Shown: piece by piece, positions 7,392 to 37,311 of the stretch
Position numbering within the stretch: the first letter of the stretch is position 1
Layout: each line of letters opens with the position of its first letter
Origin: Hoeflea sp. YIM 152468
GTDB lineage: Bacteria > Pseudomonadota > Alphaproteobacteria > Rhizobiales > Rhizobiaceae
Assembly: GCF_029210485.1 (NCBI RefSeq)
Contig: NZ_JARGET010000027.1
Coordinates: 1-52,219, forward strand
DNA length: 52,219 nt
Direction of reading: 5' to 3'
Notes under the pieces: generated by a model
What the model was told of the DNA's origin: nothing
The model's input: the letters and a program-made list of their open reading frames with translations, nothing else
Database searches by the model: none
Made by a program: the position numbers and the translations under genes

Positions 7392-7416
7392 AACGCCCGG
7401 TTGTTATGTTGGTTCC
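7392..7416 (-). promoter_or_regulatory. EcfG-type promoter of the sigma factor gene
   Basis: On the minus strand this reads GGAAC (7416-7412), 17 nt ending in C, then GTT (7394-7392), an exact match to GGAAC-N16-CGTT. It lies about 38 nt upstream of the sigma ATG, implying positive autoregulation. Confidence 0.8.
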
Positions 7417-7523
7417 ACCCGTTTTGAAGCAAATGCGGTACGGTTTGGAGGGAAGCGCTGAAGAGCGCTCCAGTTCTTGATGCAGCGCTGGCGGGGTGCG
7501 GCACAGGCGGGAACGCGCTGGCC

Positions 7524-7679
7524 TCAAGGCACAAAAATGGCAAGTGCGGCCGCTAGCAGAACAAGGCCCACCAGTCCCAGACCAAACACAAGGCGCCGGG
7601 CCGGCGTGCGCAAGATGATGTCACCCTGCCGGGCCTTTCTCGCCGGGTAGGACCGTTGCTGTTGCGTTTTCTTCACCAC
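7524..7679 (-). CDS. small single-pass membrane protein (51 aa)
   Basis: A basic N-terminal half (KKTQQQRSYPARKARQG) is followed by one transmembrane helix near the C-terminus (residues about 30-50, LVFGLGLVGLVLLAAALAIF). Small proteins of this ARQG-plus-helix design are common in rhizobial stress loci; the function is unknown. The start is a GTG at 7679 (or 7676) with CAGGAG 5-8 nt upstream. An in-frame ATG at 7700 cannot be the start because it abuts the -10 element of the EcfG-type promoter and would precede the transcript. Confidence 0.65.
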   Translation of the reverse strand: MVKKTQQQRSYPARKARQGDIILRTPARRLVFGLGLVGLVLLAAALAIFVP

Positions 7680-7700
7680 AGAATCTCCTGTTGCGGTCAT

Positions 7701-7725
7701 AACGTCGGTGCGGTGGAAATGTTCC
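7701..7725 (-). promoter_or_regulatory. EcfG-type promoter of the 51-aa membrane protein
   Basis: GGAAC (7725-7721), 17 nt ending in C, GTT (7703-7701) on the minus strand. The expected transcript begins only a few nucleotides before the ribosome site at 7685-7689, giving a very short leader. Confidence 0.75.
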
Positions 7726-7871
7726 AGGCCAACGCGTCGGCGACGTCCTGCAGGGAACCATTGTGCCGCTGTGGTCTTTGACATGTGCAGGCGCGAAGCT
7801 TTCGCGGATCGGGGCCTTCTCTTCCTTGCCCGGTCTGACCGGCTCAACAACCAGATGGAGGACGTATCGCC

Positions 7872-8186
7872 ATGGACGAGAGATTTGACATGCCCGAGAT
7901 GTCAGCGGTCGAAATCGAGGGCCGCTTGATTGCGCAGCGCCATGTCCTGCAATGGCTGTTGCTGCATGTGGTCAAGCATGATGTCGACGTCGGCGCATTG
8001 CTTACCGAGCTGGACGAACGGTGGTCGCTTGCTGATGCACAGGAGGACCCCGGAGCCGTGCCCACAAGCGGCTTCGCTGTCTTCTCCGCGACCATGGCGG
8101 AAATGCGGCTGCTGCTCGAACCGCTGAAACAGAGCCGTACGTCCATGGCAAGCCAACCGGCGACTGGCCAATCGGCGAGAGGTTAG
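7872..8186 (+). CDS. hypothetical small acidic protein (104 aa)
   Basis: Not recognised as a named family. It is a 104-residue soluble, mostly helical protein with an amphipathic N-terminal half (EIEGRLIAQRHVLQWLLLHVVK). GGAGG lies 11 nt before the ATG at 7872; a second in-frame ATG is at 7890. A weak EcfG-like element (GGAAC at 7753-7757, then TT after 18 nt but no GTT) is upstream. Its place beside the sigma gene suggests a stress role, but this is inference. The 8187-8303 gap is empty. Confidence 0.6.
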   Translation: MDERFDMPEMSAVEIEGRLIAQRHVLQWLLLHVVKHDVDVGALLTELDERWSLADAQEDPGAVPTSGFAVFSATMAEMRLLLEPLKQSRTSMASQPATGQSARG

Positions 8187-8303
8187 GGGTGGAGCTTGAG
8201 CCTGTTGTCCTGGACCAGACGCGACAAATGGCTCGGATGGCGTTTGCCGCCGTCAGCGCAATCCGGGTGGCGTCAGTCAGGATCCGTGCCTCGGCAAGCG
8301 ATG

Positions 8304-9020
8304 TCAGTGCATCGGACCGAGCAGGCGATGATACTCCTCTTCCGGTCGTCCGTAGGTATCGGCGGCGAAGGATTCCATCGCGGCGCGGTTCCGGATGGTG
8401 ATGAAGCCGCGCTCGGCGCGTATGAAACGATTGCCTTCGAGCACATGCAGGGAGGTGGTGACGCTCGGCCGCCGCACGGCCAGCATCAGCGACAGGAACT
8501 CATGGGTGAGCGGGATTTCATCGCCGTCGACGCGGTCGTGACACATCAGCAGCCAACGGGCCAGCCGCTCGTCGATCTGGTGAACCGCGTTCGACAAAGC
8601 GGTGTAGGCAGTTTGGGTTGAAAGCGTGTGCAGATAGGTCATCAGCACACGGCGCAGGTCAGAACTCGCCGCCATTGCCGCGAGGAAGGGGCCGCGCTCG
8701 ATACGGTGGCCGGCGCCCGGCAGTTGCATGAAAATGTCGTGTGGGTGGCTGTCGGCTTCGATCAGAAGGGACACCGGTCCCCATCCGTCACGCCCGAACA
8801 GACCAGCTTCGGCGCGCTGCCCTTCCGGCGATTCCGCCACGATCGATGCAATGCCGGAGTCAACGAAATAGGCGTGATGCGAGAATTCGCCTGCCTCGGC
8901 AATGGCAAACCTGTTGGGCAGTTCCACAGGTTCGAGATATTGCGCCAAGCGGTGGAAGTCATCCTGCGACATGAGCTGAAGGAGCCGATTGCGCACAGCC
9001 GACTGCACTAATCCAGACAT
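8304..9020 (-). CDS. Crp/Fnr family transcriptional regulator
   Basis: A 238-aa regulator. Residues about 15-130 fit a cyclic-nucleotide-binding-like beta-barrel, and about 150-225 form the Crp-type winged helix (LTHEFLSLMLAVRRPSVTTSL as recognition helices). No cysteine cluster of the Fnr type is seen, so an oxygen-sensing iron-sulfur role is unlikely. The ATG at 9020 has GGAGAG upstream. It is divergent from the receiver-domain gene at 9212, so 9021-9211 probably holds both promoters, though no EcfG site is visible there. Similar regulators are common in rhizobial stress loci. Confidence 0.85.
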   Translation of the reverse strand: MSGLVQSAVRNRLLQLMSQDDFHRLAQYLEPVELPNRFAIAEAGEFSHHAYFVDSGIASIVAESPEGQRAEAGLFGRDGWGPVSLLIEADSHPHDIFMQLPGAGHRIERGPFLAAMAASSDLRRVLMTYLHTLSTQTAYTALSNAVHQIDERLARWLLMCHDRVDGDEIPLTHEFLSLMLAVRRPSVTTSLHVLEGNRFIRAERGFITIRNRAAMESFAADTYGRPEEEYHRLLGPMH

Positions 9021-9211
9021 TGCTCTCTCCCATTGGGGCAAGAGCAAACGCTATCTCTCAGTCGGTCACGCCCTAAAAAATCTGAGACCGATACCAACTC
9101 CTAGCATGTTGTCTGGTGCCATTCCTACTTCGTCTTTTAACGTACCGATGCGGACAGCAAGACAAAGCAAATCTATACTTCGAACTCATTCAATCCACGA
9201 GGAGATTGACG

Positions 9212-9667
9212 ATGCGCGAGCGCATGCCTTTGGTGTTGGTGTTGGAAGATGAACCGCTCATCGGATTCGAGGTCGAGCAACGGTTGAATTACTTTGGATT
9301 CCGGGTCGGCGGCCCTTTCCGCTCCGGCCTGGAGGCCATGGGCTGGATCAGGCACAACGATCCTGACAGTGTTGTGTTCGGGGTGAGCCTTGCGGATGCT
9401 GTGTGGTCCGGGCTTGCCGGTATGCTTTTGGCCAGAAACATTCCGTTCGTGGTCCACACGACTACCACGCGGCAGCAAGGCGACCATGATCCCGTATTCG
9501 ACAAATGCCGGTGGGTAAGCAAGCTCAGTCAGCCGCTGGATCTGATTGATGCCGTCACTGCGTCGCTGCCGCTCCCGCTATCGGGAAGTCGGAGTGAGCG
9601 GGGGAGCAAACGATCGGCGGTCTCGTCGGATTACCCCCAGCCTCGCACTGGTATCGATCCGCTGTAG
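9212..9667 (+). CDS. stand-alone receiver domain, degenerate at the phosphorylation site
   Basis: A 151-aa CheY-like protein with no output domain. The acidic pocket near residues 12-14 (LEDEPL) is present. At the beta-3 end, where the acceptor Asp is expected, the sequence reads VVFGVSL, with Gly at about position 57. The later Thr (HTTTT) and Lys (WVSKL) positions remain recognisable. The protein probably cannot be phosphorylated normally and may act as a binding decoy or partner protein. The ATG at 9212 has GAGGAG upstream. The C-terminal 30 residues are hydrophilic and probably disordered. Confidence 0.75.
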   Translation: MRERMPLVLVLEDEPLIGFEVEQRLNYFGFRVGGPFRSGLEAMGWIRHNDPDSVVFGVSLADAVWSGLAGMLLARNIPFVVHTTTTRQQGDHDPVFDKCRWVSKLSQPLDLIDAVTASLPLPLSGSRSERGSKRSAVSSDYPQPRTGIDPL

Positions 9668-9724
9668 GTGTTGTTTGCCGCCGTTTGCTTGCGGCTGTCG
9701 CCGGGGCGGCAATGGTGCGGCAAG

Positions 9725-9752
9725 GCCGGCCCGGCAACCGATGCGGGCCGGC
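9725..9752. terminator. hairpin between convergent genes
   Basis: Perfect 9-bp inverted repeat GCCGGCCCG / CGGGCCGGC with a 10-nt loop, in the 107-bp gap between the receiver gene and the convergent lipoprotein gene. No T-run follows on either strand, so efficient intrinsic termination is uncertain. Confidence 0.45.
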
Positions 9753-9774
9753 AGGGCGTTTGCGGTTCTGGAAT

Positions 9775-10023
9775 TTACGGGCAGTCGGCGGTGTAGCGAC
9801 GTCCGCGGCTATCCCGGTAATAGCACTTGCCCGGTTCCTGCGCGTTTCCGATCAGCGCGCCGGCCACGGTGCCGACGGCGCCACCGACAATGGCGCCTTC
9901 AACATCACCGCTGACAGCGCCACCGATCGCGGCGCCGGATACGCCGCCCACCGCCGCTCCCCTTTCGGTGGCGCTGCAGGCGCCGAGCGCAAGCAAAGCT
10001 GTGGCGAATACAAGATGTTTCAT
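9775..10023 (-). CDS. glycine-zipper outer-membrane lipoprotein (82 aa)
   Basis: Signal peptide with lipobox LGAC (Cys about residue 16), then a Gly/Ala-rich zipper segment (GGVSGAAIGGAVSGDVEGAI and on to residue 60). A short tail, YYRDSRGRRYTADC, is typical of the Rickettsia 17-kDa-antigen-like / YMGG family. Such proteins sit in the outer membrane or periplasm and are often stress-induced. The ATG at 10023 follows a good Shine-Dalgarno (AGAGGAGAG) and an EcfG-type promoter 30 nt upstream. The function of the zipper is unknown. Confidence 0.8.
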   Translation of the reverse strand: MKHLVFATALLALGACSATERGAAVGGVSGAAIGGAVSGDVEGAIVGGAVGTVAGALIGNAQEPGKCYYRDSRGRRYTADCP

Positions 10024-10052
10024 GGGTCTCTCCTCTTTGCGTTCAGGCGGGT

Positions 10053-10077
10053 AACCATGAAGCGGCGCCGAAGTTCC
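10053..10077 (-). promoter_or_regulatory. EcfG-type promoter of the glycine-zipper lipoprotein
   Basis: Minus strand: GGAAC (10077-10073), 17 nt, GTT (10055-10053). It is about 30 nt upstream of the ATG at 10023 and back-to-back with the plus-strand site at 10115. Confidence 0.78.
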
Positions 10078-10114
10078 AAAAAAGTTTCGGCCCGCGCTCA
10101 ATCGCGGTCGGGCA

Positions 10115-10139
10115 GGAACAAATTGTCTCCGCCGATGTT
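10115..10139 (+). promoter_or_regulatory. EcfG-type promoter of the flavodoxin-like gene
   Basis: GGAAC (10115-10119), 17 nt, GTT (10137-10139). It is about 128 nt before the ATG at 10267, giving a leader of roughly 120 nt in which no gene is seen. Confidence 0.72.
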
Positions 10140-10266
10140 CGGCAAAGGCAGCGGCCTGGTTGCTGATCGGCCGCGGCACGACAAAATCACATGATCCAGG
10201 AAACGAGGTCCGGCACCACAGCCGGCGAACGGTATGGGAGCAGGATGCAGGTCCTGATGGAATGAC

Positions 10267-10875
10267 ATGAAAGCCATTGCACTGAACGCAACCCTCAAGT
10301 CCGGGGCTGACCGGAGCACATCTTCCACCGGGCATATGCTTGGGCTGATCGCGTCCGAACTGCAACGCCACAAGGTCGAGTGCGAGGTCGTTGCCTTGGC
10401 CGACCATGCCATCCAGCCGGGCGTCACCTCCGACGAGGGAGAGGGCGACGAATGGCCGATGATCCGTGACAAGATCCTCGCCGCGGATATTCTGATCCTG
10501 GGAACGCCGATCTGGCTGGGACAGCCGTCGAGTGTGTGCAAGCGTGCGCTGGAGCGGATGGATGCATTCCTGGCCGAAACCGACGATCAGGGCAGGATGG
10601 TGTCATACGGTCGGATCGCCGCTGTTGCCGTCGTCGGCAACGAGGATGGGGCGCACCATGTTTCAGCCGAGCTGTATCAGGCGCTCAACGATGTCGGGTT
10701 CACATTGGCTCCGAACGCGGTGGCCTATTGGGTCGGAGAAGCGATGAGTGCTACCAATTTCATCGATCTGCCCGAACCGCCGCAGAAGGTTCAATCCGCC
10801 ATCGACGTGATGGTGCGCAACACATTGCATCTGGCCAGGCTGATCGCGACCGATCCCTATCCAGGGCGCAAGTAG
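10267..10875 (+). CDS. flavodoxin family NAD(P)H-dependent reductase
   Basis: A 202-aa protein of the NADPH-dependent FMN reductase/flavodoxin fold. The N-terminal NATLKSGADRSTSSTGH fits the FMN phosphate loop, and ILGTPIWLGQPSSVCKRALER is the flavin-ring segment. It is presumed cytosolic and to transfer electrons to quinones, flavins or azo compounds, which could protect against redox stress. It carries its own EcfG-type promoter. Its TAG stop directly touches the stop of the convergent BON-domain gene (TAGCTA at 10873-10878), so the two 3' ends have no spacer. Confidence 0.82.
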   Translation: MKAIALNATLKSGADRSTSSTGHMLGLIASELQRHKVECEVVALADHAIQPGVTSDEGEGDEWPMIRDKILAADILILGTPIWLGQPSSVCKRALERMDAFLAETDDQGRMVSYGRIAAVAVVGNEDGAHHVSAELYQALNDVGFTLAPNAVAYWVGEAMSATNFIDLPEPPQKVQSAIDVMVRNTLHLARLIATDPYPGRK

Positions 10876-11169
10876 CTACACTTCGCTGCCAAGGGGAGGC
10901 GGGCTGCTTCGTACGGTGATGGCGCTTTCCACATGCCGGACTCCCGCAACGGCCGCGGCGGTTTCCATGCATCTGCGCAGTTCAGCTTCATCGGTGACCC
11001 AACCGCTCAGGATGATGCTTGATCCCGACACCACCGTGACCTCGACATCCGCCGCGTCGTACTTTCCGCTGGCCGCCAAGGCCGCGGCGACGTCCGCCTC
11101 GAGCTGCGCCGCTTTCGCGCGTTCGGGATCTGCCGGCTCACCGAAATATTCCCGTTTCTTGTAGACCAT
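10876..11169 (-). CDS. BON domain protein (97 aa)
   Basis: One BON domain fills residues about 22-88 (EVTVVSGSSIILSGWVTDEAE and AGVRHVESAITV). BON domains bind membranes or periplasmic partners in osmotic-stress proteins such as OsmY. No signal peptide is visible, so this copy looks cytoplasmic. The ATG at 11169 has GGAAGG upstream; upstream in-frame codons to 11352 are ignored. It is the last gene of an apparent operon with the hydrolase and DUF3182 genes (88-bp gap). Confidence 0.8.
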   Translation of the reverse strand: MVYKKREYFGEPADPERAKAAQLEADVAAALAASGKYDAADVEVTVVSGSSIILSGWVTDEAELRRCMETAAAVAGVRHVESAITVRSSPPPLGSEV

Positions 11170-11257
11170 GTCATCACCTTCCTCTGTTGTCCTTGCGTCT
11201 GTTGTTGCGGCGGGTGTGTGCGCCCCGGCACCAACCCGATGCGTGGCGCCAGACGCA

Positions 11258-11986
11258 TCAGCGGGCGTTGAGCACCATTTCCCGTATCCAGCCCAGAAGC
11301 AGATCGTCATAGGCATGCCGGCTGGCCGGAGTGGACAGCGCATGGTCGGCATCCTCGATCAGCCTGTGGGTGATCGAGCGCGCTTTCACGAATGAAGCGA
11401 TGTAACTGGCGATGGTCGCATGCGGGATCAGGTGATCGTTTTCCGATTCCACGATCAGCACATCACCCTGGAAATCCGTGCAACTGCGCAAGGCACGGTT
11501 TGAGCGAACCGGCACCTGCGCACTCCTGAAATCCTGCAGCTCCTTGCGGTCCAGCGAGTATTTGGCAACCTCCCAGGCCTCGTCCTCGTAGAGGGCGGGC
11601 ACGCGCATCCCCAGCCATCTCACCGACCGGCAGGATGTCAGAAGTGTGGCCAGGTAGGCTCCGTAACTACTGGCCACCACGGCGATCGAACCGGAATCCA
11701 CGCCGGGGTGGCGGGCAAGGGCATCATAGGCGGAACAGACGTCGGCCAGATTCTCCGCAGGCGTGACAGTCTTGAGATGCTCGTGCATGTCGCCATGGCC
11801 GCGCATGTCGAAGGTCAGGCATATGCATCCCAATTGCGCGATTGCTCTGGAACGGCGTTCGTCACGTTTCTGACTCCCGGCCCATCCGTGCACAAAGAGC
11901 ACACCCGGAAAGCCGGTTGCCGGTTCAAAGAAATGGCCGGCCATCTCGACACCATCGACCTTGATCTGTGCATCCTTCTTTTTCAC
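11258..11986 (-). CDS. alpha/beta hydrolase
   Basis: A 242-aa protein with the alpha/beta-hydrolase order: VLFVHGWAGS (oxyanion loop), FDMRGHG, the nucleophile elbow VVASSYGAY (Ser about residue 110), the acid in ESENDHLI, and the His in DADHAL. Relatives are esterases or dienelactone-hydrolase-like enzymes; the substrate is unknown. Its ATG overlaps the stop of the upstream DUF3182 gene (ATGA, 11983-11986), a sign of translational coupling. Confidence 0.85.
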   Translation of the reverse strand: MKKKDAQIKVDGVEMAGHFFEPATGFPGVLFVHGWAGSQKRDERRSRAIAQLGCICLTFDMRGHGDMHEHLKTVTPAENLADVCSAYDALARHPGVDSGSIAVVASSYGAYLATLLTSCRSVRWLGMRVPALYEDEAWEVAKYSLDRKELQDFRSAQVPVRSNRALRSCTDFQGDVLIVESENDHLIPHATIASYIASFVKARSITHRLIEDADHALSTPASRHAYDDLLLGWIREMVLNAR

Positions 11987-13095
11987 CTTGCATCCTGCAC
12001 GTGACTGTATTTCAGCAGCGGCCCCAGCTCCGGGTCCACACCGTGGAAATAGACATCCGCATCCCTCGGAGGAACGATGTCGTCGCCATATTGTTCCACA
12101 GTTGAAGCCTGAACCTTGTGCAGGTCGGGGTCATGGGCAAAGGCCTTCAGTGCGGCGATTTCCGCACCGCTGGCGCCACCCACCCGCCAGGATTGTTCAA
12201 GCACCGCGTGCTTGATCCTGCCGCGGCTGTCGCGGCCGGAAATGAGGTCATAGTTGCGCCGCGAGGCCACCAGACCAAGATGTCTGGTGGCCAGGTGATC
12301 AAACCGCATGCCGAGTTCGCACAGGTTCCTTTCCTCACCGGATAACGCCTCGACAAGATCTGATAGCCGTCCGCGTGACACCTGCAGGCAGGACCCGCCA
12401 TAGACCTCCTGCCGCTGGTTGTTGAGCGTGAGTTGCTGCTCGCCCATATAGGCTGCCGACACGCCGCCGAGCATGATCTGACCGACGCTGAAGGTTCTCA
12501 CATCCGTGAGGTTCTCCTCCAGCACAAGGCAGTCGAAAAGGCCATCGTCACCGGTCAGAGTGTCGATGACGTAAAACAATTCATCCAGTGAGGTTGCAAC
12601 CTGTTGCTGCGTCCCGCCGCTTGCGCTGACCAGCTTGATGCGGATGTCTCCAGCCTGCAGCAGTTTTCGTCCTGCGGCAATCGCGCCGCGGCTGGTGGTG
12701 GCTGTAAAGCCGGGGAGGGTGAGATCCGCTGCGACACGGGCAAAGGAGCCGGGCCAGGTCGGATCCAGCGCCTCGTCCGGTGCGAGCGGATGCACGATGG
12801 CTTTTGTGGCCGCCATCGGATGGCTCACCTGACCGCCCAGAAAATCGCCCTCGCCGGGGTAGGGGAGATGGGGGCTGCACTCGGCGCCGCACAGCGTGGC
12901 GCGAGGAACACAATAGGGGCGACGCGAACAGCGGTAATCCTCCAGGCGCCCGTGGTATTCCTTGCCCAGGAAATCCGCCACACGCCGGGTCAGGGCGATG
13001 TGTGACAGCTCGTCATGGCTGTCTAGGCCGAGGCATCCCCAGGTGAGGACCGGTCCGTCATCGCGGTGACGCGCAAGGGGTGACGCTTGTTCCAT
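11983..13095 (-). CDS. DUF3182 family protein
   Basis: A 370-aa protein matching my recollection of DUF3182. The conserved blocks are TKAIVHPLAPDEA, a glycine-containing strand (IKLVSASGGTQQQV), LVLEENLTDVRTFSVGQI, VYGGSCLQV, LVASRRNYDLISGRD and VLEQSWRVGGASGAEIAAL. The layout of Lys/Glu-rich strands suggests an ATP-grasp-like fold, but no reaction is established. It heads a three-gene operon (DUF3182, hydrolase, BON) behind an exact EcfG-type promoter, so it is probably made during stationary phase or stress. Confidence 0.75.
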   Translation of the reverse strand: MEQASPLARHRDDGPVLTWGCLGLDSHDELSHIALTRRVADFLGKEYHGRLEDYRCSRRPYCVPRATLCGAECSPHLPYPGEGDFLGGQVSHPMAATKAIVHPLAPDEALDPTWPGSFARVAADLTLPGFTATTSRGAIAAGRKLLQAGDIRIKLVSASGGTQQQVATSLDELFYVIDTLTGDDGLFDCLVLEENLTDVRTFSVGQIMLGGVSAAYMGEQQLTLNNQRQEVYGGSCLQVSRGRLSDLVEALSGEERNLCELGMRFDHLATRHLGLVASRRNYDLISGRDSRGRIKHAVLEQSWRVGGASGAEIAALKAFAHDPDLHKVQASTVEQYGDDIVPPRDADVYFHGVDPELGPLLKYSHVQDAR

Positions 13096-13126
13096 GAAAG
13101 AGCTTCCTTTGTCTCAAGCGTGGGTA

Positions 13127-13151
13127 AACCCGGCATGGAGGCGAATGTTCC
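13127..13151 (-). promoter_or_regulatory. EcfG-type promoter of the DUF3182-hydrolase-BON operon
   Basis: Minus strand: GGAAC (13151-13147), 17 nt, GTT (13129-13127). It lies 32 nt upstream of the DUF3182 ATG; AAGGAAG before that ATG can serve as ribosome site. Confidence 0.8.
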
Positions 13152-13473
13152 GCACCGCAGAGAATTTTCGATGCGGCAAGGGGACGCCGGACGCAATGTC
13201 TTCGTCCCGCCGCGCCGGTAGTGCGTGGTTGGCATGGAGACCACCGGAGGATCCGGCCTGCAAGGTGATCGAAACCGATCCGAGGCCGTCCCATGCGATT
13301 GCGCGTTCGGTGCAGCAACCGGTGCAGCGATGTGACCGGAGATCCGGGTTGGCGGCGGCACTGAAGCAGCAGCGGAAGCCACCGCCAGGCGACATTGGAG
13401 TGGCGGATCATGATTGTTGACGGCTGCAACAGGGTTGAACGAAGCGGCTTGAAAAATAAAAATGCAGCGAGGC

Positions 13474-13498
13474 GGAACATTCACGTCAGTTTCCGGTT
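13474..13498 (+). promoter_or_regulatory. orphan EcfG-type promoter
   Basis: GGAAC (13474-13478), 17 nt, GTT (13496-13498) on the plus strand. No convincing coding gene follows; the transcript would run about 240 nt to the hairpin at 13714-13745. A 44-codon frame (ATG about 13560 to TGA 13694) lacks a ribosome site. The rest of 13152-13789 shows no gene. Confidence 0.6.
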
Positions 13499-13504
13499 GG
13501 GCAA

Positions 13505-13750
13505 GTCCGCGTTGGCATACTCCAGCCCCAACCGTGCCGCGCGGGCAAAACCATGGATCATGGTCCGGCCGATGGTCTTCCCCCAAGACCGTCGGCCATT
13601 TTTCCTCCAGATTTCATCAGGCAGGTCGACCCGAGCCGCCATTGTTGATCCGGAGCCGGAAATTCTGACAGGGATGGATTTGCGCGCGGCCTGAAAATTC
13701 GCAAAACCCCGGAAAAGGCAGGAAGCCTTCTTGCCTCCTGCCTTTCGCCT
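13505..13750 (+). ncRNA. candidate stress-controlled small RNA (or short mRNA)
   Basis: The interval is defined only by the EcfG-type promoter at 13474-13498 and the 10-bp hairpin at 13714-13745. Its start is estimated from the -10 position. No strong ribosome site or recognisable peptide is present. It could also be an untranslated leader or a non-functional promoter remnant. Confidence 0.3.
13714..13745. terminator. bidirectional hairpin terminator
   Basis: Perfect 10-bp stem AAAGGCAGGA / TCCTGCCTTT with a 12-nt loop. On the plus strand CGCCTTTTTC follows; on the minus strand the stem runs into TTTTCC. It lies 45 nt past the stop of the CBS gene (minus) and about 240 nt past the orphan promoter (plus). 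Confidence 0.65.
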
Positions 13751-13789
13751 TTTTCAAGGGAGGGCGTTGCACCTCTTGTGGGCCTGGGA

Positions 13790-14230
13790 TCAGACGGTGT
13801 GTGATTGTGAATGCTGACCGCCGGGCTGCGATATGTCGCTCAGTGCCGGTCCGGCTGCGCCATCCATGGCTTGGGTGGCAAGATCGCCAAGCGACAGGAT
13901 GCCGGCAAGCCGCTTGTCGCGATCGAGAACCGGGAGCCGCCGCAGCTGCTGGTTGCCGAGATTTTCGAGAACCTGGGCAACATCCTCGTCTTCGAAACAG
14001 TACTTCACTTCCTTTGACATCACGTCTTCGATGGGCGTTTCCGGACCGTGGCCCCCTGCAATGGCGCGGACCGCAATATCGCGATCCGTCAGCATTCCGA
14101 CGAGGCGATCATTTTCCCCGACCGGTACCACACCAGCATCTATTTCCGCCATGGTCACAGCGGCTTGCCGGATAGTATCTCTGGGGTGGGCGACAACAAC
14201 ATCACGGGTCATGACTTCGCTAACACGCAT
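13790..14230 (-). CDS. tandem CBS domain protein (146 aa)
   Basis: Two CBS motifs form one Bateman module. The first (residues about 1-58) begins MRVSEVMTRDVVVAHP and has GMLTDRDIAVRAI; the second (about 70-130) has EDVAQVLENLGNQQ and AGILSLGDLA. Such stand-alone modules bind adenine nucleotides and sense energy state. The ATG at 14230 was chosen because AGGAG precedes it and it matches the usual family start; the frame extends to 14281 across the promoter. It has an exact EcfG-type promoter and a hairpin terminator, so it is a single-gene unit. Confidence 0.85.
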   Translation of the reverse strand: MRVSEVMTRDVVVAHPRDTIRQAAVTMAEIDAGVVPVGENDRLVGMLTDRDIAVRAIAGGHGPETPIEDVMSKEVKYCFEDEDVAQVLENLGNQQLRRLPVLDRDKRLAGILSLGDLATQAMDGAAGPALSDISQPGGQHSQSHTV

Positions 14231-14265
14231 TCTGGCTCTCCTTTCGATAGGGGGTGAGCTGTCCG

Positions 14266-14290
14266 AACCAGAGCGGGTCACAAAAGTTCC
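14266..14290 (-). promoter_or_regulatory. EcfG-type promoter of the CBS-domain gene
   Basis: Minus strand: GGAAC (14290-14286), 17 nt, GTT (14268-14266), 36 nt before the ATG at 14230. Confidence 0.8.
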
Positions 14291-14400
14291 CGGAATTTTT
14301 CAGTGTTGGCCCGGCGTTGCCTTCAAACCCCGAAGTCAGTTCTATCGGGCATTGCCTGCAACGGCGTGCGGCAGGATGGGATCTGCTGCCGGGCTTGCGG

Positions 14401-14565
14401 CTAGGTGCCGCCGCCTTCTTCGGTGAAGAGCTCGGCGGTCTTTTTGTCCCGCCTGATCTTTTCCTCGCGGCTCAGACGCCGTTTGCGCAACAGCGCATAG
14501 ACCATCGCTGCGGCGAGCAGGAGTGGGCCGACAGCAACGACGAGAAACCAGAGCAGATTTTCCAT
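14401..14565 (-). CDS. small membrane protein (54 aa)
   Basis: A 55-codon frame. The protein starts MENLLWFLVVAVGPLLLAAA, one N-terminal transmembrane helix (residues about 3-25). A strongly basic then acidic tail follows (LLRKRRLSREEKIRRDKKT and AELFTEEGGGT). AAAGGG lies 8 nt upstream of the ATG, and an exact EcfG-type promoter (14608-14632) lies 43 nt upstream. Size, helix and charged tail resemble small membrane proteins of stress or respiratory loci; I cannot name a family. Confidence 0.7.
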   Translation of the reverse strand: MENLLWFLVVAVGPLLLAAAMVYALLRKRRLSREEKIRRDKKTAELFTEEGGGT

Positions 14566-14607
14566 GTCATCCCTTTCTGGAGTTGGACTGGCGTTCCATT
14601 GCCTGCC

Positions 14608-14632
14608 AACCGGCGGACGGGTGATTTGTTCC
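14608..14632 (-). promoter_or_regulatory. EcfG-type promoter of the 54-aa membrane protein
   Basis: Minus strand: GGAAC (14632-14628), 17 nt, GTT (14610-14608). Confidence 0.75.
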
Positions 14633-14675
14633 GAACATTCTTTCGGCCCCCGAATGGCCAGCTCGCAGGAGTGTT

Positions 14676-14760
14676 TCAGCCGTAGAGCACAACCGCCTTG
14701 AGATATCCGTCCTGACGATCATATGCCGCGTCGGGCGCCTCGCCGACCCGGTCGACCGAC
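14676..14760 (-). pseudogene. relic of a zinc alcohol dehydrogenase 3' end
   Basis: Between an in-frame TAG and a TGA, the minus strand encodes about 27 residues including EAPDAAYDRQDGYLKAVVLY. This resembles the C-terminus of zinc-dependent alcohol/formaldehyde dehydrogenases (which end in a YD..KQDGCxKVVL pattern). There is no start codon and no room for the rest of the enzyme. The remainder of 14633-14867 shows nothing. The match is short, so it may be chance. Confidence 0.3.
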
Positions 14761-14867
14761 TAAGAGGGGAGAAAAAGCGGAAAAGGGGCGATCAGTCCCG
14801 CCGCAACAGCAGCGAGCGCGTCCCTGGTGCGCCGGACTTGACCTGTTCGATGCTCTCCGGAGCTGCG

Positions 14868-14892
14868 GGAACTTATCGTCATCCCGGATGTT
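14868..14892 (+). promoter_or_regulatory. EcfG-type promoter of the phospholipase D gene
   Basis: GGAAC (14868-14872), 17 nt, GTT (14890-14892), 37 nt before the GTG start at 14929. Confidence 0.8.
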
Positions 14893-14928
14893 GGATAGGG
14901 AGCAGGTGAATCGGCCGTGGAGGTGTGA

Positions 14929-16449
14929 GTGAACGACCAAAATCCCGGGAAGGCCATCCTACAGCCCGGCCTGAATGTCTGGAAAAAGGTCGCTGCCGAA
15001 AATGTGCTGTTCCTGATCGACATGGAGTCCTATCTCGAGCAGCTCAAGCCGGTTCTGCAGGCGGCGAAGCGGTCGATCTGGATCATAGGGTGGGACTTCA
15101 ACCCCGACTTTGATCTTGATCAGGGTGACGCCGGTGGCAGTTGCGCGCTTGGCCCCTTTCTCAGAGACCTTGCCGACGATAATCCGGAGCTTGAAATCCG
15201 GATTCTGATATGGGGGGAAGGTCCGGTGTTTTCCGGTCGCACCTTGCGGTTCTTTCTGAAAATGGGCTGGGAAGACCACCCGCGCATTCATCTGCACTAC
15301 GATCTCGCACATCCGATTCGCGCCTCTCATCACCAGAAAATCGTTGCTGTCGACGAGTGCTTCGCCTTTGTCGGCGGAATGGACCTGACCGCGAAGCGGT
15401 GGGACGACCGGCTGCACCGGGCCGACCATCCGCTGCGGCTGACTCCGGACGGCAAGGCCTATCCGCCGGTTCATGATGTGCAAGTGCTTGTGTCAGGCGA
15501 GGCGGCATCGGCACTGGCCGAGGTGGCACGCCGGCGCTGGGCTGAAGACAGCGGCGAGCAGGTCCCAGCCCATGGCAGCCTGGAGCATGCCTGGCCCAGC
15601 GACAGCCAACCGCACATTCGCAATTGTGAGGCCGGCATCGCCCTGACACAGCCTGGCACGGCGAACTCCAGGCGACGGACCGAGGCGATCCGGCTGACCT
15701 GCGACGCGATCGCCGCTGCGAGACACTGCATCTATATCGAGGCTCAGTATCTCGCCTCCTTGCGCGTCACCCGCAGGCTTGCCGCCAGGCTGAAGCAGCC
15801 TGCAGGGCCGGAAGTCATCATTGTGGCGCCGCAAACCACGCGGGGCGCCATGGAGCAGCTCACAATGGGCGAAGGTATGGCGCGCTGCCTGCGCATGCTC
15901 CGCCGCGCAGACCGGCATGACCGCCTGCGCGCCACCTATGCAGTGGTGCCGGCAGCGGATGGGGGTGAGCAGGAAATACTGGTCCACGCCAAGGTTGTGA
16001 TCATCGACGACCGGCTGGCGCGGGTCGGCTCATCCAATCTCAACAACCGTTCCGAAGGCTTCGACACCGAATGTGACCTGGCCATAGAAGGCGATAGCAA
16101 CGCCTGCCGTGCGGCAATAGTGGACCTGCGCAATGATCTTCTTGCCGAGCATCTCGATGCGGACAAGGCCGAACTTGCCCGCCTGATTGAGGAGCGCGGT
16201 TCGGTCATTGCCGCGCTGGATGCGCTCAATGTCCGCGCCAGAGGGCTGCGTTCCCTGGATATAGAGCCGGCCATGCACCATCGCATCGCCTCCATGGGCA
16301 AGGTGCTGTTTGATCCGAAACGTCCGTACTGGCCGTTTCACCGGATCGTCAATTGGCCGCGTTCTCTGTTTCAGCGGCTGAAGGCGAAGATGCATTTTGG
16401 CAAGACTGGTGACGCGGCGACTTGCGGCGAAGATGAGCCGCTTCGGTAA
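14929..16449 (+). CDS. phospholipase D / cardiolipin synthase-like protein (YbhO-like)
   Basis: A 506-aa protein with two HKD motifs: SHHQKIVAVD at about residues 134-142 and VHAKVVIIDD at about 352-360, the latter followed by GSSNLNNRS. This duplicated layout is that of cardiolipin synthases and related phosphatidyltransferases. No N-terminal membrane helix is present, as in ClsB/YbhO. The start is GTG with GGAGG upstream. The neighbouring YbhN-like and YbhP-like genes recreate the enterobacterial ybhP-ybhO-ybhN set, so a role in membrane phospholipid remodelling is likely. The 3' end overlaps the convergent ybhN-like gene by 101 bp. Confidence 0.85.
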   Translation: MNDQNPGKAILQPGLNVWKKVAAENVLFLIDMESYLEQLKPVLQAAKRSIWIIGWDFNPDFDLDQGDAGGSCALGPFLRDLADDNPELEIRILIWGEGPVFSGRTLRFFLKMGWEDHPRIHLHYDLAHPIRASHHQKIVAVDECFAFVGGMDLTAKRWDDRLHRADHPLRLTPDGKAYPPVHDVQVLVSGEAASALAEVARRRWAEDSGEQVPAHGSLEHAWPSDSQPHIRNCEAGIALTQPGTANSRRRTEAIRLTCDAIAAARHCIYIEAQYLASLRVTRRLAARLKQPAGPEVIIVAPQTTRGAMEQLTMGEGMARCLRMLRRADRHDRLRATYAVVPAADGGEQEILVHAKVVIIDDRLARVGSSNLNNRSEGFDTECDLAIEGDSNACRAAIVDLRNDLLAEHLDADKAELARLIEERGSVIAALDALNVRARGLRSLDIEPAMHHRIASMGKVLFDPKRPYWPFHRIVNWPRSLFQRLKAKMHFGKTGDAATCGEDEPLR

Positions 16450-17363: not shown

Positions 17364-17389
17364 GGAACGAAAGCCCGCTACGATGAGTT
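17364..17389 (+). promoter_or_regulatory. EcfG-type promoter (N18 spacing) of the YbhP-like gene
   Basis: GGAAC (17364-17368), 18 nt, GTT (17387-17389). The spacing is equivalent to GGAAC-N19-TT, accepted for RpoE2-type promoters. It is 36 nt before the ATG at 17425. Confidence 0.6.
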
Positions 17390-27574: not shown

Positions 27575-27599
27575 AACTTCCAGAACTCTGTTGTGTTCC
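27575..27599 (-). promoter_or_regulatory. EcfG-type promoter of the 155-aa secreted protein
   Basis: Minus strand: GGAAC (27599-27595), 17 nt, GTT (27577-27575), 50 nt before the start. Confidence 0.75.
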
Positions 27600-27799: not shown

Positions 27800-27824
27800 G
27801 GAACAAACGCGCGGTTTGTTGGTT
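27800..27824 (+). promoter_or_regulatory. EcfG-type promoter of the CopD-like gene / oxidase cluster
   Basis: GGAAC (27800-27804), 17 nt, GTT (27822-27824), 74 nt before the GTG at 27898. A 14-codon frame (27857-27901) with stop TGA overlaps that GTG and could be a coupling leader peptide. Confidence 0.75.
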
Positions 27825-33206: not shown

Positions 33207-33584
33207 TCAGTGATCCCTCTGTGCCGAAGCAAAAAGGGCTTGTGCGATCTTTTCGAGTTCGAACGGCTTTTCGCAAAGCACGAACCCTTCGAAGCGCGAC
33301 GGAATGATCTCGGCGTCATAGGCGCTGGCGAACACAAACGGGATGCCCATGTCCTGCAATCTTTCGGCGACGGGAAACACAAATTCTCCGGTCAGATAAA
33401 TGTCCAGAATGGCGGCATCGACCTGTGTGGTGTCGAGATATTCCAGGGCCTCATCGACGTCGGGGGTGGGGCCTATGACGGTGGCGCCGAGGGCTTCCAG
33501 CTTCAGGCGCGTCTCCTCGGCGAGAAGAAATTCATCTTCCACGATCAGCACTCTGGTGCCTGAAAACCTGTCAGAATGTGTCAC
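33207..33584 (-). CDS. stand-alone receiver domain response regulator
   Basis: A 125-aa receiver domain without output domain. The acidic pocket is VEDE (about residues 15-18), the phosphate acceptor Asp is at about 61 (AAILDIYL), the Ser/Thr in FVFASAYD, and the Lys at about 106 (CEKPF). So, unlike the protein at 9.2 kb, this one looks fully functional. The start is GTG at 33584; no strong ribosome site is visible, and upstream codons read to 33746 without looking coding. Single-domain regulators of this type feed into stress signalling in alphaproteobacteria; the partner kinase is not in the window. Confidence 0.8.
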   Translation of the reverse strand: MTHSDRFSGTRVLIVEDEFLLAEETRLKLEALGATVIGPTPDVDEALEYLDTTQVDAAILDIYLTGEFVFPVAERLQDMGIPFVFASAYDAEIIPSRFEGFVLCEKPFELEKIAQALFASAQRDH

Positions 33585-33928: not shown

Positions 33929-33934
33929 TCACCA

Positions 33935-33959
33935 AACAGGTTGGCGACGCGTGTGTTCC
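33935..33959 (-). promoter_or_regulatory. EcfG-type promoter of the 33.8-kb stub
   Basis: Minus strand: GGAAC (33959-33955), 17 nt, GTT (33937-33935). Confidence 0.72.
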
Positions 33960-34103: not shown

Positions 34104-36626
34104 TCATTCGGGCAAGGCCCAGGCAATGACTGCATCACCGACGGGGGTTTCCATGAAGTGGTGACCTCCCGGTGCCAGCACGATGAACTGACGCCCGTCG
34201 ACCTCGAAGGTGATGGGGGTCGTCTGACCGCCGGCAGGCAGGCTGTCGGTCCACAGAACCTCACCCGTCTCGATGTCGATGGCGCGGATCAACCCGTCTG
34301 TCGCCGCAGCTATGAAGACCAATCCGCCGGCGGTGACGATGGGGCCGCCATTGTTCGGCGTGCCGATCTTGAAAGGGAGCCTGGACGGGATCCCGAAGGG
34401 CCCGTTGTTGAGGGCCTGACCGAGCGGCTGATCCCACAATGTCTCGCCTGTCGCCAGGTCGATCGCGCGGATGCCGCCATAGGGAGGCTTTTTGCACAGC
34501 AGACCGGAGTAATCCATGCGCCATCCTGCATTGACCGCAATGCCGTAGGGCGCGCCGATCTGCGGTCCCGCCTCGCCGGATTCGCCCTCCGGCGAATTGA
34601 TTGCGGTGGCGTCGACCTCTTCGCGCGGGATCAGCCGGTTGAAGTTGGGCATGTCGTTGTAATTGGCGATCAGGATGCCGCGCTCTTCATCGACGGCCAT
34701 GGACCCCCAGTCCTGGCCGCCATTGTAACCGGGATACTGGATCCAGCGTCCTTCGGTCGTGGGCGGTGTGTACATGCCGGCATAATTGGCGCGGCGGAAC
34801 TGGATGCGGCACCACAACTGGTCGAGCGGCGACATGCCCCACATGTCCTTTTCGGTCAGCGGTTCGAAGGCGAGTGTGTGATAGGTGGAGAAGGGCTGCA
34901 CATCCGACAGGTAGTCCGGTTCCACGCCCATATTGGTGGGCACTGCGCGTACTTCGACCGGGAACAACGATTCCCCGGTCTCGCGGTTGAGCACGTAGAT
35001 GTCGCCCTGCTTGGAAGACACGATGATGGCCGGCACCGTGCCGTTCCCGCCGGGAAAATCCACCAGCGCGGGCTGGGATCCGAGATCGTAATCCCAGACA
35101 TCGCGATAGACCGTCTGAAAGTGCCACACGTCCTCGCCGGTGGTGACGTCGACGGCAACGATCGAGGTGGCGTATTCGTTCTCCAGATCCGAGCGGTTGG
35201 AGCCGTAATAGTCGACCGAGGAGTTGCCGAGCGGCAGGTAGACATAGCCCAGCTCCTCGTCGGCTGCCGGAGTGGTCCACATGTTGGGCGTGCCCCGGGT
35301 GTAGGTCTCGCCTTCGGCCGGTGCCCCGCGATTGCCGGGATTGCCCAGATCCCAGGCCCAGGCAAGCTCGCCGGTGACGGCGTCAAAGCCGCGCACTACG
35401 CCTGACGGCGCATCCTCGCCCTGGCCGTCCTTCACCTGTGCACCGACGACAGCGACGCCTCGAACAATGATGGGGGGTGAAGTGACCGAGTACCAGCCCG
35501 GAACGGTGTCGCCGATGCCTTCTTCGAGATTGATCTGGCCTGAGAGACCGAAATCGGGGCAGGACTCGCCGATTTGTGCATCGACCGCGATCAACCGCGC
35601 ATCGAGCGTGGCCCACAGGACGCGGGTGGCGCAGAGGTCGTCCGGGTCGGCATCGGGAACCTCGAAATAGGCTGCTCCCCGGCAGGTGGCGCCATAGGGG
35701 ATGGCATCATCAGGCACCTCCGGATCATGGCGCCATTCCTCCTTGCCGGTGCCGGCATCAATCGCCACCATGATGCCCATTGCCGTGCAGTGATAAAGGG
35801 TGCGGCCGATCTTGAGCGGGGTGTTTTCGGGCGAATATTTTCCCTCCGCCTCGCCGTCGGGAAGATCGCCGCTGTTGAAGGTCCAGACACGCTCAAGCTG
35901 GTCGACATTGCCGGTGTTGATCTGTGAAAGCGGAGAATTGCGGGTTGCGTGGATCGAGCCGCCATAGGAGGGCCAGTCCTCGCCCACGGCGCGAACCGGC
36001 AGAGGCGCGCGTGCCGCAGGCTGCCGGGCGCCATCCTCCGATTGCGCCGTGACGTCCGCACCGGCATCCGGTTCAAGGCCCGGCGCCGGGCTTGCTGCCG
36101 GATCGCTTTCCTGCTGGGTCTGCGCGATGCCCGGGCTTGCCGGATCGGCGGCTTCCTGTGCATGGGCTGCGAAATGGCCGCTCGTGCCGGCGAGAATGGC
36201 AAGGCTTGCGAGAACGGGAAGTGCCGTTGAGGCCGCCGTCCGGTCCCGGGCCTGCGCGCGGGTCTTGCTGCGGTGTCGCAACATTGGAATGCATATCAGC
36301 ACCAGTACCAGGATGACAGACGGCGCCACCAGTCGCGGCACCTGGGCCCACCAATCCGTTCCCACTTCCCAGAACGCCCATACGAGTGTGAAGATATAGG
36401 TGAGAAGATAGACCCAGAGCCCGGCCATCGTCTGCGCCGCCAGCAACATGCCGGACACGACAAGTCCAACGCCGGCGATCAGGTAGTACCAGGAACCACC
36501 CAGCGCAATAAGCCAGATTCCGCCTGCGCCCAGCACGATCCCGATCAGCGCCATCAGTGTTCCGATGCCGGTGCAGTACCAGTAGGCTGCGCCCTTTTGC
36601 CCCTGAGGGCTGCGCTCATTCAACAT
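34104..36626 (-). CDS. membrane-bound PQQ-dependent sugar dehydrogenase (glucose/quinate/shikimate family)
   Basis: An 840-aa protein. About five N-terminal transmembrane helices (residues 15-115) are followed by a Pro/Ala/Glu-rich linker (about 155-205) and a periplasmic eight-blade beta-propeller. Repeated tryptophan-docking motifs are visible: AIDAGTGKEEW, GFDAVTGELAWAW, AVDVTTGEDVWHF, AIDLATGETLWDQ and AIDIETGEVLWTD. It oxidises a sugar or polyol in the periplasm and passes electrons to ubiquinone. It is a little longer than E. coli Gcd because of the linker. Substrate not decidable from sequence. An exact EcfG-type promoter lies 67 nt upstream. Confidence 0.88.
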   Translation of the reverse strand: MLNERSPQGQKGAAYWYCTGIGTLMALIGIVLGAGGIWLIALGGSWYYLIAGVGLVVSGMLLAAQTMAGLWVYLLTYIFTLVWAFWEVGTDWWAQVPRLVAPSVILVLVLICIPMLRHRSKTRAQARDRTAASTALPVLASLAILAGTSGHFAAHAQEAADPASPGIAQTQQESDPAASPAPGLEPDAGADVTAQSEDGARQPAARAPLPVRAVGEDWPSYGGSIHATRNSPLSQINTGNVDQLERVWTFNSGDLPDGEAEGKYSPENTPLKIGRTLYHCTAMGIMVAIDAGTGKEEWRHDPEVPDDAIPYGATCRGAAYFEVPDADPDDLCATRVLWATLDARLIAVDAQIGESCPDFGLSGQINLEEGIGDTVPGWYSVTSPPIIVRGVAVVGAQVKDGQGEDAPSGVVRGFDAVTGELAWAWDLGNPGNRGAPAEGETYTRGTPNMWTTPAADEELGYVYLPLGNSSVDYYGSNRSDLENEYATSIVAVDVTTGEDVWHFQTVYRDVWDYDLGSQPALVDFPGGNGTVPAIIVSSKQGDIYVLNRETGESLFPVEVRAVPTNMGVEPDYLSDVQPFSTYHTLAFEPLTEKDMWGMSPLDQLWCRIQFRRANYAGMYTPPTTEGRWIQYPGYNGGQDWGSMAVDEERGILIANYNDMPNFNRLIPREEVDATAINSPEGESGEAGPQIGAPYGIAVNAGWRMDYSGLLCKKPPYGGIRAIDLATGETLWDQPLGQALNNGPFGIPSRLPFKIGTPNNGGPIVTAGGLVFIAAATDGLIRAIDIETGEVLWTDSLPAGGQTTPITFEVDGRQFIVLAPGGHHFMETPVGDAVIAWALPE

Positions 36627-36692
36627 ATCTCAAACCTCCCGTTTTCGATTGCAGTGTCTGCTGCTGGCAAGAAGGACCAGCACTGAACCCGA

Positions 36693-36717
36693 AACCGGCA
36701 ACTTCGGCGAATGTTCC
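36693..36717 (-). promoter_or_regulatory. EcfG-type promoter of the PQQ dehydrogenase
   Basis: Minus strand: GGAAC (36717-36713), 17 nt, GTT (36695-36693). It is back-to-back with the plus-strand site at 36794. Confidence 0.75.
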
Positions 36718-36793
36718 ACACGCCAGCAATTCCTGTTGCCACAGAAGCAGCACCGGTCGCGGCCTGCAGGCAACGGACGTGCGAAATTTTCTC

Positions 36794-36818
36794 GGAACAA
36801 ACAGCACACGAAGCGGTT
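36794..36818 (+). promoter_or_regulatory. EcfG-type promoter of the 86-aa lipoprotein
   Basis: GGAAC (36794-36798), 17 nt, GTT (36816-36818). The leader is about 180 nt. In it, a frame ending at TGA 36998-37000 (from ATG 36919, 26 codons, PYAELLRRCG) overlaps the next start region and could be a small upstream gene, but its ribosome site is too close. Confidence 0.72.
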
Positions 36819-37002
36819 CGCTGGTGGCGCGGACCGGGACAAGTGAGAGTGCCCCTTGCCTCATTCCTCCTCCCGATGAGGCGGTCCGCGCGCTGTGTCT
36901 GCGCGGCCGGGAGGGAATGCCATACGCAGAGCTGCTGCGGCGATGCGGCAGTCATGTTGACCTCAATCCGCAAGATGCGGATGCCGATCAGGAGCAATGA
37001 CA

Positions 37003-37263
37003 ATGAAGACTTGGCTATCCATGCGTTGGTTCGTCCCGCTGTGTGCGGCAGGCCTTCTGGCGGCATGCGGCGAGGAGCCGGAGGACGCGCCGGACACGCT
37101 TCTTCCCGACCGCCCCGAAGACAAGCTCATCGAAGACACCAGACAGCCCGAACGGGTGGATCAGGATCCGACGCCCCAGACCGGAACCAGCGGCGTCATC
37201 CCCGGCTACAATCCTGTGGAAGGGAATGACGACGGTGAGGCTGAGCCATCTGTCTCCGACTGA
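37003..37263 (+). CDS. small acidic lipoprotein (86 aa)
   Basis: Signal peptide MKTWLSMRWFVPLCAAGLL with lipobox LAAC (Cys about residue 22). The mature part is hydrophilic and acidic (many Glu, Asp, Pro) without a recognisable domain, so it is probably disordered and anchored to a membrane. ATG at 37003 was chosen because AGGAG is 8 nt upstream; the ATG at 36997 is only 2 nt from it. It is followed after 86 bp by the EF-hand/PRC gene, which has its own promoter. Confidence 0.7.
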   Translation: MKTWLSMRWFVPLCAAGLLAACGEEPEDAPDTLLPDRPEDKLIEDTRQPERVDQDPTPQTGTSGVIPGYNPVEGNDDGEAEPSVSD

Positions 37264-37286
37264 GGGTCAAAAAAATAATCTGGTCT

Positions 37287-37311
37287 GGAACAATGGCCGG
37301 AGTCTCCGGTT
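37287..37311 (+). promoter_or_regulatory. EcfG-type promoter of the EF-hand/PRC-barrel gene
   Basis: GGAAC (37287-37291), 17 nt, GTT (37309-37311), 38 nt before the ATG at 37349. Confidence 0.8.

Follow-up and report, generated by a model that had tools for sequence, protein, structure and literature searches.

The 52,219-nucleotide contig NZ_JARGET010000027.1 of Hoeflea sp. YIM 152468, hereafter the window, carries a dense cluster of promoter-like sites around a gene for a sigma factor of the EcfG type, the regulator family of the alphaproteobacterial general stress response. The window is an entire contig of a host genome of 4,274,706 bases in 40 contigs. Exact matches to the pattern GGAAC-N17-GTT number 22 in it, every one within positions 7392-37311, and four further matches have the N18 form. 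With a probability of roughly two in three, we read the stretch from 5.75 to about 40 kb as an accessory stress island, in which the canonical EcfG of the host would activate the island sigma factor and the latter would serve a private regulon, clustered in cis, through promoters with a relaxed -10 element. An earlier note on this DNA had described a dense block of stress-type genes with a sigma gene of its own, and this description stands.

The density of the sites is confined to the block. In 100 dinucleotide shuffles the N17 pattern occurred 1.09 times per 52 kb on average (standard deviation 1.09, largest count 5), and each of the other spacers from N12 to N23 gave 0-2 matches in the window. 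Across the whole genome there are 163 N17 sites, compared with 222 matches to the reversed pattern, so the 141 sites outside the window (4.22 Mb) are no more than chance; they correspond to 1.74 expected per 52 kb, for which the probability of 22 or more is 3e-17. The check put forward by the earlier note, whether the same density is found everywhere, thus comes out in favour of a local block, with the rest of the genome at chance. All 21 sites that it had listed, 18 with N17 and three with N18 (17364, 18287 and 20509), are real in coordinate and strand; its list omitted 12071 (plus) with 12073 (minus), 18229 (minus), 23042 (minus) and the N18 site at 21081 (plus). The pair 12071/12073 is a single palindromic overlap inside a gene and counts as two of the 22.

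Measured against gene calls made in this analysis and corrected by hand, 24 of the 26 N17 or N18 sites lie outside called genes, compared with four of 14 matches with other spacers (the other 10 being inside genes), and a start codon follows 21-73 nucleotides (nt) downstream on the matching strand for 16 of the 26. With transcription units grouped by eye, an exact site is found in front of about 19 of 27, and the earlier claim that almost every transcription unit has one was overstated. Candidate matches with one mismatch occur at 33-99 nt in five more units, those of the open reading frame (ORF) at 7872, the CRP regulator, the flippase, sodC and DUF2231.

The island sites differ from the promoters found elsewhere in the genome in the base before GTT and the base after GGAAC. 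This comparison employs an AT-rich form of the N17 pattern, GGAACnWW, a filter chosen once the sites had been seen, which matches 50 sites genome-wide against 14 for the reversed control. C precedes GTT in 26 of the 31 AT-rich sites outside the island, spread over 12 contigs, and in 3 of the 19 inside (Fisher test 3e-6; 1e-6 without the palindrome); two of these three lie beside the sigma gene and the third is the intragenic palindrome. The filter removes the island sites at 10053, 27575 and 33935, none of which has C. GGAAC is followed by A in 11 of 17 island sites (not counting the palindrome) and in 3 of 31 outside (P = 1e-4), where C follows in 18 of 31. In this genome and 15 relatives, every AT-rich N17 site at the canonical ecfG locus has CGTT; the matches without C at these loci are AT-poor N17 sites, most at one recurring place, and five AT-rich N18 sites with T at another. 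The designation as EcfG promoters in the earlier note is partly supported. The GGAAC element, the GTT core and their spacing agree with it; most island sites read GGAACA...GTT, however, the base before GTT being hardly constrained, and the scan proposed there for GGAAC-N16/17-CGTT finds only four matches in the window. The sites lacking this C, termed class 2 here, suggest GGAACAWW-N14-GTT, with the base before GTT free, as a candidate pattern.

The same two classes can be followed in relatives. Among the best 80 of 439 relatives' loci, which pool related loci in the statistics on the spacer and on the base before GTT, the spacer optimum is N17 (455 sites), followed by N18 (192), and all other spacers from N10 to N25 give 26-54. 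Exact sites upstream of the sigma gene are present in 36 of the 80 loci, and C precedes GTT in 26 of the 28 that are exact and AT-rich. When up to one mismatch to GGAAC-N16/17-CGTT is allowed, such a site precedes the sigma gene in 78 of the 80 loci (34 CGTT, 41 CATT, 1 CTTT and 2 AGTT), compared with 5-20 of 80 for six off-spacer controls, and the C is kept in 76 of 80. The CATT form, found in 41 of 80 loci, may denote a canonical promoter of lower strength or different tuning. At the AT-rich N17 sites that do not precede the sigma gene, C occurs in 62 of 262, a share near that of the off-spacer background (136 of 482). A complete switch of the -10 element to GGTT was considered and rejected as too strong a description, since base frequencies before GTT are close to background in relatives. 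Among 260 class-2 sites of relatives, the second and third bases after GTT are often G (58% and 43%, respectively), which might represent an extended -10 element.

Clustering around the sigma gene recurs well beyond the genus. Of 199 genomes sampled evenly from the order, 20 carry an island-type sigma gene at E <= 1e-38. The 19 carriers other than the present genome have 339 non-C AT-rich sites against 160 for the control, and the 179 non-carriers 1755 against 2612; the difference (Mann-Whitney 4e-6) is inflated by relatedness, and a permutation within eight families gives P = 0.006. Ten of the 19 carriers, from six families, were selected for spread and listing size, the positions in one of them (G015) being known beforehand; 31 of their 137 non-C sites lie within 30 kb of the sigma gene, where 1.65 are expected, and clustering is present in nine of the ten. 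In Rhizobium etli plasmid p42f, the 50 kb with ecfG2 contain 15 N17 sites, with C in 2 of 15, and two other 49-kb stretches contain 0 and 1; an annotated start is no more than 150 nt away for 14 of 16 N17 or N18 sites and for 2 of 14 matches with other spacers. The R. etli katG gene, sought as an experimental cross-check, was not found in the three p42f stretches examined. Martelella plasmid pMM593 carries 13 N17 sites (C in none) and 7 N18 sites, a plasmid of Roseinatronobacter (Rhodobacterales) 19 and 5 (C in 1 of 24), a Mesorhizobium plasmid 12 N17 sites, and the Sinorhizobium meliloti locus 7 N17 sites in 40 kb. The sigma gene of this last locus (L123) has no name in its record, and we take it to be RpoE5 from its gene neighbourhood. 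For p42f, pMM593 and the Roseinatronobacter plasmid together, 45 of 60 N17 or N18 sites have an annotated start within 150 nt, compared with 9 of 43 off-spacer matches.

The island sigma factor (6812-7354, minus strand, 180 amino acids) matches the Pfam models Sigma70_r2 (8e-17), PhyR_sigma2 (6e-13) and Sigma70_r4_2 (2e-10), by which it is assigned to ECF15/EcfG; the closest solved chain is 5uxx. Its best other match in the genome is the canonical EcfG on contig C26 (39% identity), where phyR, nepR and ecfG ORFs lie together, the first two recognised by eye from their translations. A canonical EcfG is encoded next to nepR and phyR and serves a GGAAC-N16/17-CGTT regulon. Judged from its sequence neighbourhood, the island sigma gene does not adjoin such a pair, and 16 of the 19 AT-rich island sites, its putative regulon, lack the C. 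Ten ORFs near the gene were tried against Pfam without a NepR-like match, and a private anti-sigma factor adjoining it was rejected on the same ten. The tree contains a branch (support 96/95) that separates 103 rows, including the island sigma factor and R. etli EcfG2, from 16 canonical and 2 further rows, which places the island protein with EcfG2 and away from canonical EcfG; R. etli EcfG2 and the S. meliloti sigma factor are on long branches, and their exact positions are unsure.

Comparison of 106 island-type with 16 canonical proteins, the latter all from one genus, reveals that the -35 helix of region 4.2 is nearly identical in both. Positions that are invariant or nearly so in canonical proteins are changed in the loop before the melting Asn and in the helix around it (in canonical numbering, KQES loop 61-64, R72K, A73S, L79M, E82T, S85T and Q86R). 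The residues that read GTT in Mycobacterium tuberculosis sigma-H solved with DNA include, in the account consulted, F72, T76, N77, W81, I85, N88, I91 and N92 (PMC6411747). In the alignment, five of these eight (F, T, W, I and N88) are kept in the island sigma factor; N77, I91 and N92 are not. We infer that the changes in this region may free the base before GTT.

These features suggest the following course of events. Upon stress, the PhyR-NepR-EcfG switch of the host would free EcfG, which would transcribe the island sigma gene from the canonical promoter GGAACC...CGTT at 7392. The island sigma factor would retain the reader of the GGAAC -35 element and most residues that melt and read GTT; its altered surface next to the -10 element would dispense with C before GTT, and it would favour A after GGAAC. 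It would then transcribe some 16-19 units from the clustered class-2 promoters, among them those for trehalose synthesis, topoisomerase IB, membrane-lipid genes, a terminal oxidase set, PQQ dehydrogenase, proteins with PRC, BON and glycine-zipper domains, and probably one small RNA.

Published work on related sigma factors bears on this scheme from several sides. For R. etli, Jans 2013 gives GGAAC-N16-CGTT as the canonical EcfG1 motif and reports none for EcfG2 targets; the canonical motif was present in 1 of 19 units lowered in the ecfG2 mutant, katG expression was lowered without ecfG2, and ecfG2 expression was halved in the ecfG1 mutant (PMC3892343). A 2021 review describes the promoter pattern of non-canonical EcfGs such as R. 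etli EcfG2 as "yet to be determined" (PMC8103513). Related sources are a study of (p)ppGpp in R. etli (PMC3188799) and a map of transcription starts in S. meliloti (PMC3616915). No publication describing the clustered sites was found in the open-access literature searched.

R. etli EcfG2 (PF00052, p42f) resembles the island sigma factor in its side of the tree, in that its authors found no response regulator or anti-sigma gene nearby (PMC3892343), and in the stress-type genes and class-2-like sites near it, with a reported role in oxidative stress and in katG control. It differs in being plasmid-borne, as the EcfG2 group is according to Jans 2013, and the same authors detected no motif for its targets and proposed parallel rather than serial action. 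S. meliloti RpoE5 (SMb21484, pSymB) is likewise a second ECF15 sigma factor and a direct target switched on by RpoE2 (Lang 2018, PMC6180224); we read its mapped promoter in that source as CATT. It differs in its mere 7 N17 sites in 40 kb and its one putative target upon over-expression. Caulobacter SigU, Sphingopyxis EcfG1 and EcfG2 and Methylobacterium EcfG1-6 are EcfG paralogues layered within a single stress response, some of them hierarchical; the accounts consulted present them with common targets or a common motif and mention no private regulon clustered in cis. The canonical PhyR-NepR-EcfG response, of which the host has one locus (C26), shares the GGAAC -35 element, the GTT core and the spacing, and is distinguished by CGTT promoters, by nepR adjoining ecfG and by AT-rich CGTT sites that lie over 12 contigs here.

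A number of observations weigh against a private regulon under the island sigma factor, and the strongest are three. Over-expression of RpoE5 yielded a single putative target, changed 1.7-fold, and its authors considered the protein possibly inactive (PMC6180224). In Escherichia coli, the ecfG2 promoter was activated by EcfG2 and not by EcfG1 (PMC3892343), so C-type sites upstream of the sigma gene could also serve autoregulation; Jans 2013 places the two sigma factors in parallel. Two genomes of the genus, G215 (contig 2 of 2) and G202 (contig 5), keep the terminal-oxidase block with a TGTT promoter and have no island-type sigma match, and some other sigma factor must therefore read that promoter there. 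GGTT and TGTT are also used by canonical EcfGs elsewhere: Sphingopyxis granuli uses TGTT and GGTT promoters, with CGTT best for both paralogues and CATT as a known EcfG -10 element (De Dios 2020, PMC7083833), and the Methylobacterium extorquens consensus is C/GGTT (Francez-Charlot 2016, PMC4814048). On the side of the present data, the near-background base before GTT in relatives argues for a -10 element that is relaxed and not switched, family f46 runs opposite to the other families in the carrier comparison, one of the ten carriers (G086) has 0 of 9 non-C sites near its sigma gene, and the site before the sigma gene reads AGTT or TGTT in the Stappia loci L025 and L052 and in Roseinatronobacter. 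The choice of the AT-rich filter after the fact and the single genus behind the canonical protein rows belong to the same side of the balance.

Several of these points would be accommodated if canonical EcfG itself reads the island promoters as weaker variants with a tolerated -10 element, gathered by gene transfer, and the island sigma factor adds little. The tolerance of canonical-type EcfGs in S. granuli and M. extorquens, the oxidase promoters of G215 and G202 and the near absence of an RpoE5 effect speak for this explanation, which we nevertheless regard as unlikely: it leaves unexplained the concentration of sites near the sigma gene in six families, the non-C excess in carriers, the A after GGAAC and the scarcity of C in an island whose host genome keeps C elsewhere, and even in S. 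granuli CGTT was best with both paralogues. It is more improbable still, in our estimate, that both sigma factors read both classes, with the island sigma factor mainly raising dosage and the -10 difference being drift in transferred DNA. Such overlap finds a precedent in R. etli, where EcfG1 and EcfG2 have common targets and the phyR promoter was read by both in E. coli, and it agrees with the near-background base before GTT in relatives' islands; yet in the same study each sigma factor preferred its own promoter (PMC3892343), and drift alone would not conserve C before the sigma gene (76 of 80 loci) while leaving neighbouring sites without it. A by-product of base composition, repeats or chance we give hardly any weight. 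Short patterns do recur by chance in GC-rich DNA, and two of the 22 sites are one palindromic overlap, but shuffles, other spacers and the rest of the genome yield about 0-2 sites per 52 kb, grounds on which this explanation was rejected, and seven sites have equivalents in a genus relative (G209) with ends kept and spacers diverged.

The private regulon under the island sigma factor, if correct, may be an instance of a wider arrangement. Non-canonical EcfGs of Hyphomicrobiales and some Rhodobacterales may travel in one block with target promoters of their own, whose -10 code would suit canonical EcfG poorly, and be linked to the stress response of the host through one canonical promoter before the sigma gene; we see the odds of such a portable sub-regulon as even. 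It would supply the missing promoter pattern for the R. etli EcfG2 group, and one transfer event could extend a general stress response, because regulator and targets would move together and need one promoter that the host already reads. The block looks self-contained and may move between species, its start signals differing slightly from the usual stress signals of the cell, and the clustered sites provide a concrete candidate pattern, a target list and a simple, testable wiring.

The tRNA edge of the region and its patchy presence among relatives are features of a genomic island. Of the other 17 genomes of the genus, 16 contain the left flank (1834-5320), complete or fragmented, and all 17 contain the tRNA-Lys stretch (about 5.6-5.75 kb). 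Contiguous similarity to the genus ends at tRNA-Lys(CTT) (5674-5749, plus strand; ARAGORN, Rfam RF00005), at about 5750, which forms the left island edge; fragments of the island turn up at other places in several genomes of the genus. On the right, the flank that begins near 40.09 kb has an 89% match in G201 at 2.5 Mb from the left-flank counterpart in that genome. A simple insertion at a single site was rejected on this account, and the history of the island must be more complex. No integrase was found among the ORFs of the window that were scanned, a subset of all, and a search limited to exact repeats found no copy of the last 13-40 nt of tRNA-Lys elsewhere in the window. The earlier description of the island as chromosomal probably holds for the left flank, for which the single-contig genome G205 has a counterpart; the island itself is accessory, and the named annotated relatives that were opened are plasmid-borne, having been drawn from a plasmid-only collection.

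An island-type sigma gene is present in 1 of 18 genus genomes, two of the 18 being only 75-77% complete; in the other 17, the best matches (1e-28) are canonical EcfG or weaker, and two genomes have no match at 1e-20. These 17 genomes hold 289 non-C AT-rich sites against 209 for the control, and the listed ones are scattered. Contig 21 of G209 (1-16600), from a sister species, is a shorter colinear relative of the island, with blocks 71-88% identical, and starts about 150 bases short of the expected position of the sigma gene. It contains the positional equivalents of seven promoter sites; the base before GTT is the same in four and different in three, and the spacers have changed to a varying degree.

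The genes of the block, from a Pfam run on 50 window proteins and NCBIfam on ten, point by family name to stress protection. They comprise the ECF (extracytoplasmic function) sigma gene, a CRP-type regulator, two receiver-domain proteins (one below the Pfam cut-off), glycine-zipper, FMN reductase, DUF3182/hydrolase/BON, CBS, PLD-type, MprF-like flippase, EEP-family, topoisomerase IB, DUF982, SodC, SDR and OtsB/OtsA genes, a terminal-oxidase set with CtaG, a membrane PQQ dehydrogenase and an EF-hand/PRC protein. The canonical-type promoter GGAACC..CGTT (7392-7416, minus) lies 37 nt upstream of the sigma gene. The neighbouring GGAACA..CGTT (7701-7725, minus), also CGTT in G209, is upstream of a 51-amino-acid ORF (7524-7679). 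The CRP-family gene (8304-8996, minus; HTH_Crp_2, 1e-12) has one-mismatch sites only. It is followed by a receiver-domain-like protein (9212-9667, plus) with a Response_reg match of 5e-4, below the curated cut-off, and a weak likeness to the PhyR receiver (NCBIfam PhyR family, 2e-5, far under the cut-off). This protein and a second stand-alone receiver-domain-like one (33207-33551) are possible inputs of a stress switch.

The predicted class-2 promoters begin with GGTT at 10053-10077 (minus), 29 nt upstream of the glycine-zipper gene (9775-10023), and TGTT at 10115-10139 (plus), 196 nt upstream of FMN reductase (10336-10875). GGTT at 13127-13151 (minus) lies 31 nt upstream of the DUF3182-alpha/beta hydrolase-BON genes (13095-10876). 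The GGTT promoter at 13474-13498 (plus) has no convincing ORF downstream and is followed by a candidate small RNA (13505-13605, plus), the 3' end of which is an intrinsic terminator (stem 13567-13597) with a hairpin and then ATTTTT; the shuffled region averages 0.8 such terminators, and the fold of 13505-13607 has a z of -6.0. No Rfam family matched this candidate, which may be a stress-induced transcript from the 13474 promoter. Further along, GGTT at 14266-14290 (minus) is 35 nt upstream of a CBS-domain gene (13790-14230), and GGTT at 14608-14632 (minus), with a G209 equivalent, 42 nt upstream of ORF 14401-14565.

TGTT at 14868-14892 (plus) is placed 36 nt upstream of a PLD/cardiolipin-synthase-like gene (14929-16449), and an N18 AGTT promoter (17364-17389, plus) 35 nt upstream of the EEP-family gene (17425-18159). 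Between 14929 and 18159, the PLD-type gene, an MprF-like flippase domain without the synthetase part and the EEP-family gene are adjacent and resemble a membrane-lipid module. The GGTT site at 18229-18253 (minus) has no called gene near downstream; the N18 GGTT at 18287-18312 (plus) precedes ORF 18346-18963 by 33 nt, and another at 20509-20534 (minus), whose G209 equivalent has an N17 spacer, abuts the called start of the DUF982-topoisomerase IB genes (20508-19020). The Cu/Zn superoxide dismutase gene sodC (21572-22093, minus; Sod_Cu, 1e-33) has a one-mismatch site 47 nt upstream. Two promoters with G209 equivalents follow, TGTT at 22283-22307 (plus), 26 nt upstream of ORF 22334-22582, and AGTT at 23097-23121 (plus), 43 nt upstream of ORF 23165-23458 and then the SDR gene (23564-24376). 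Divergent from the latter, the AGTT site at 23042-23066 (minus; also AGTT in G209) has no called gene near downstream, and a terminator scan there gave none; it possibly serves a leader, a small RNA or a missed gene.

For otsB-otsA (26718-24527), TGTT at 26746-26770 (minus) lies 27 nt upstream, and for ORF 27058-27525, AGTT at 27575-27599 (minus) lies 49 nt upstream. The oxidase operon is preceded by GGTT at 27800-27824 (plus), 73 nt upstream of a membrane gene (27898-28410), with cox2, cox1 and ctaG extending to 32987; the equivalents of this site read CGTT in G209 and TGTT in G215 and G202. A TGTT site (33935-33959, minus) is 383 nt upstream of the second receiver-domain gene. GGTT at 36693-36717 (minus) lies 66 nt upstream of the membrane PQQ dehydrogenase (34104-36626; TIGR03074, above the cut-off), GGTT at 36794-36818 (plus) 184 nt upstream of ORF 37003-37263, and GGTT at 37287-37311 (plus) 37 nt upstream of the EF-hand/PRC-barrel gene (37349-38626).

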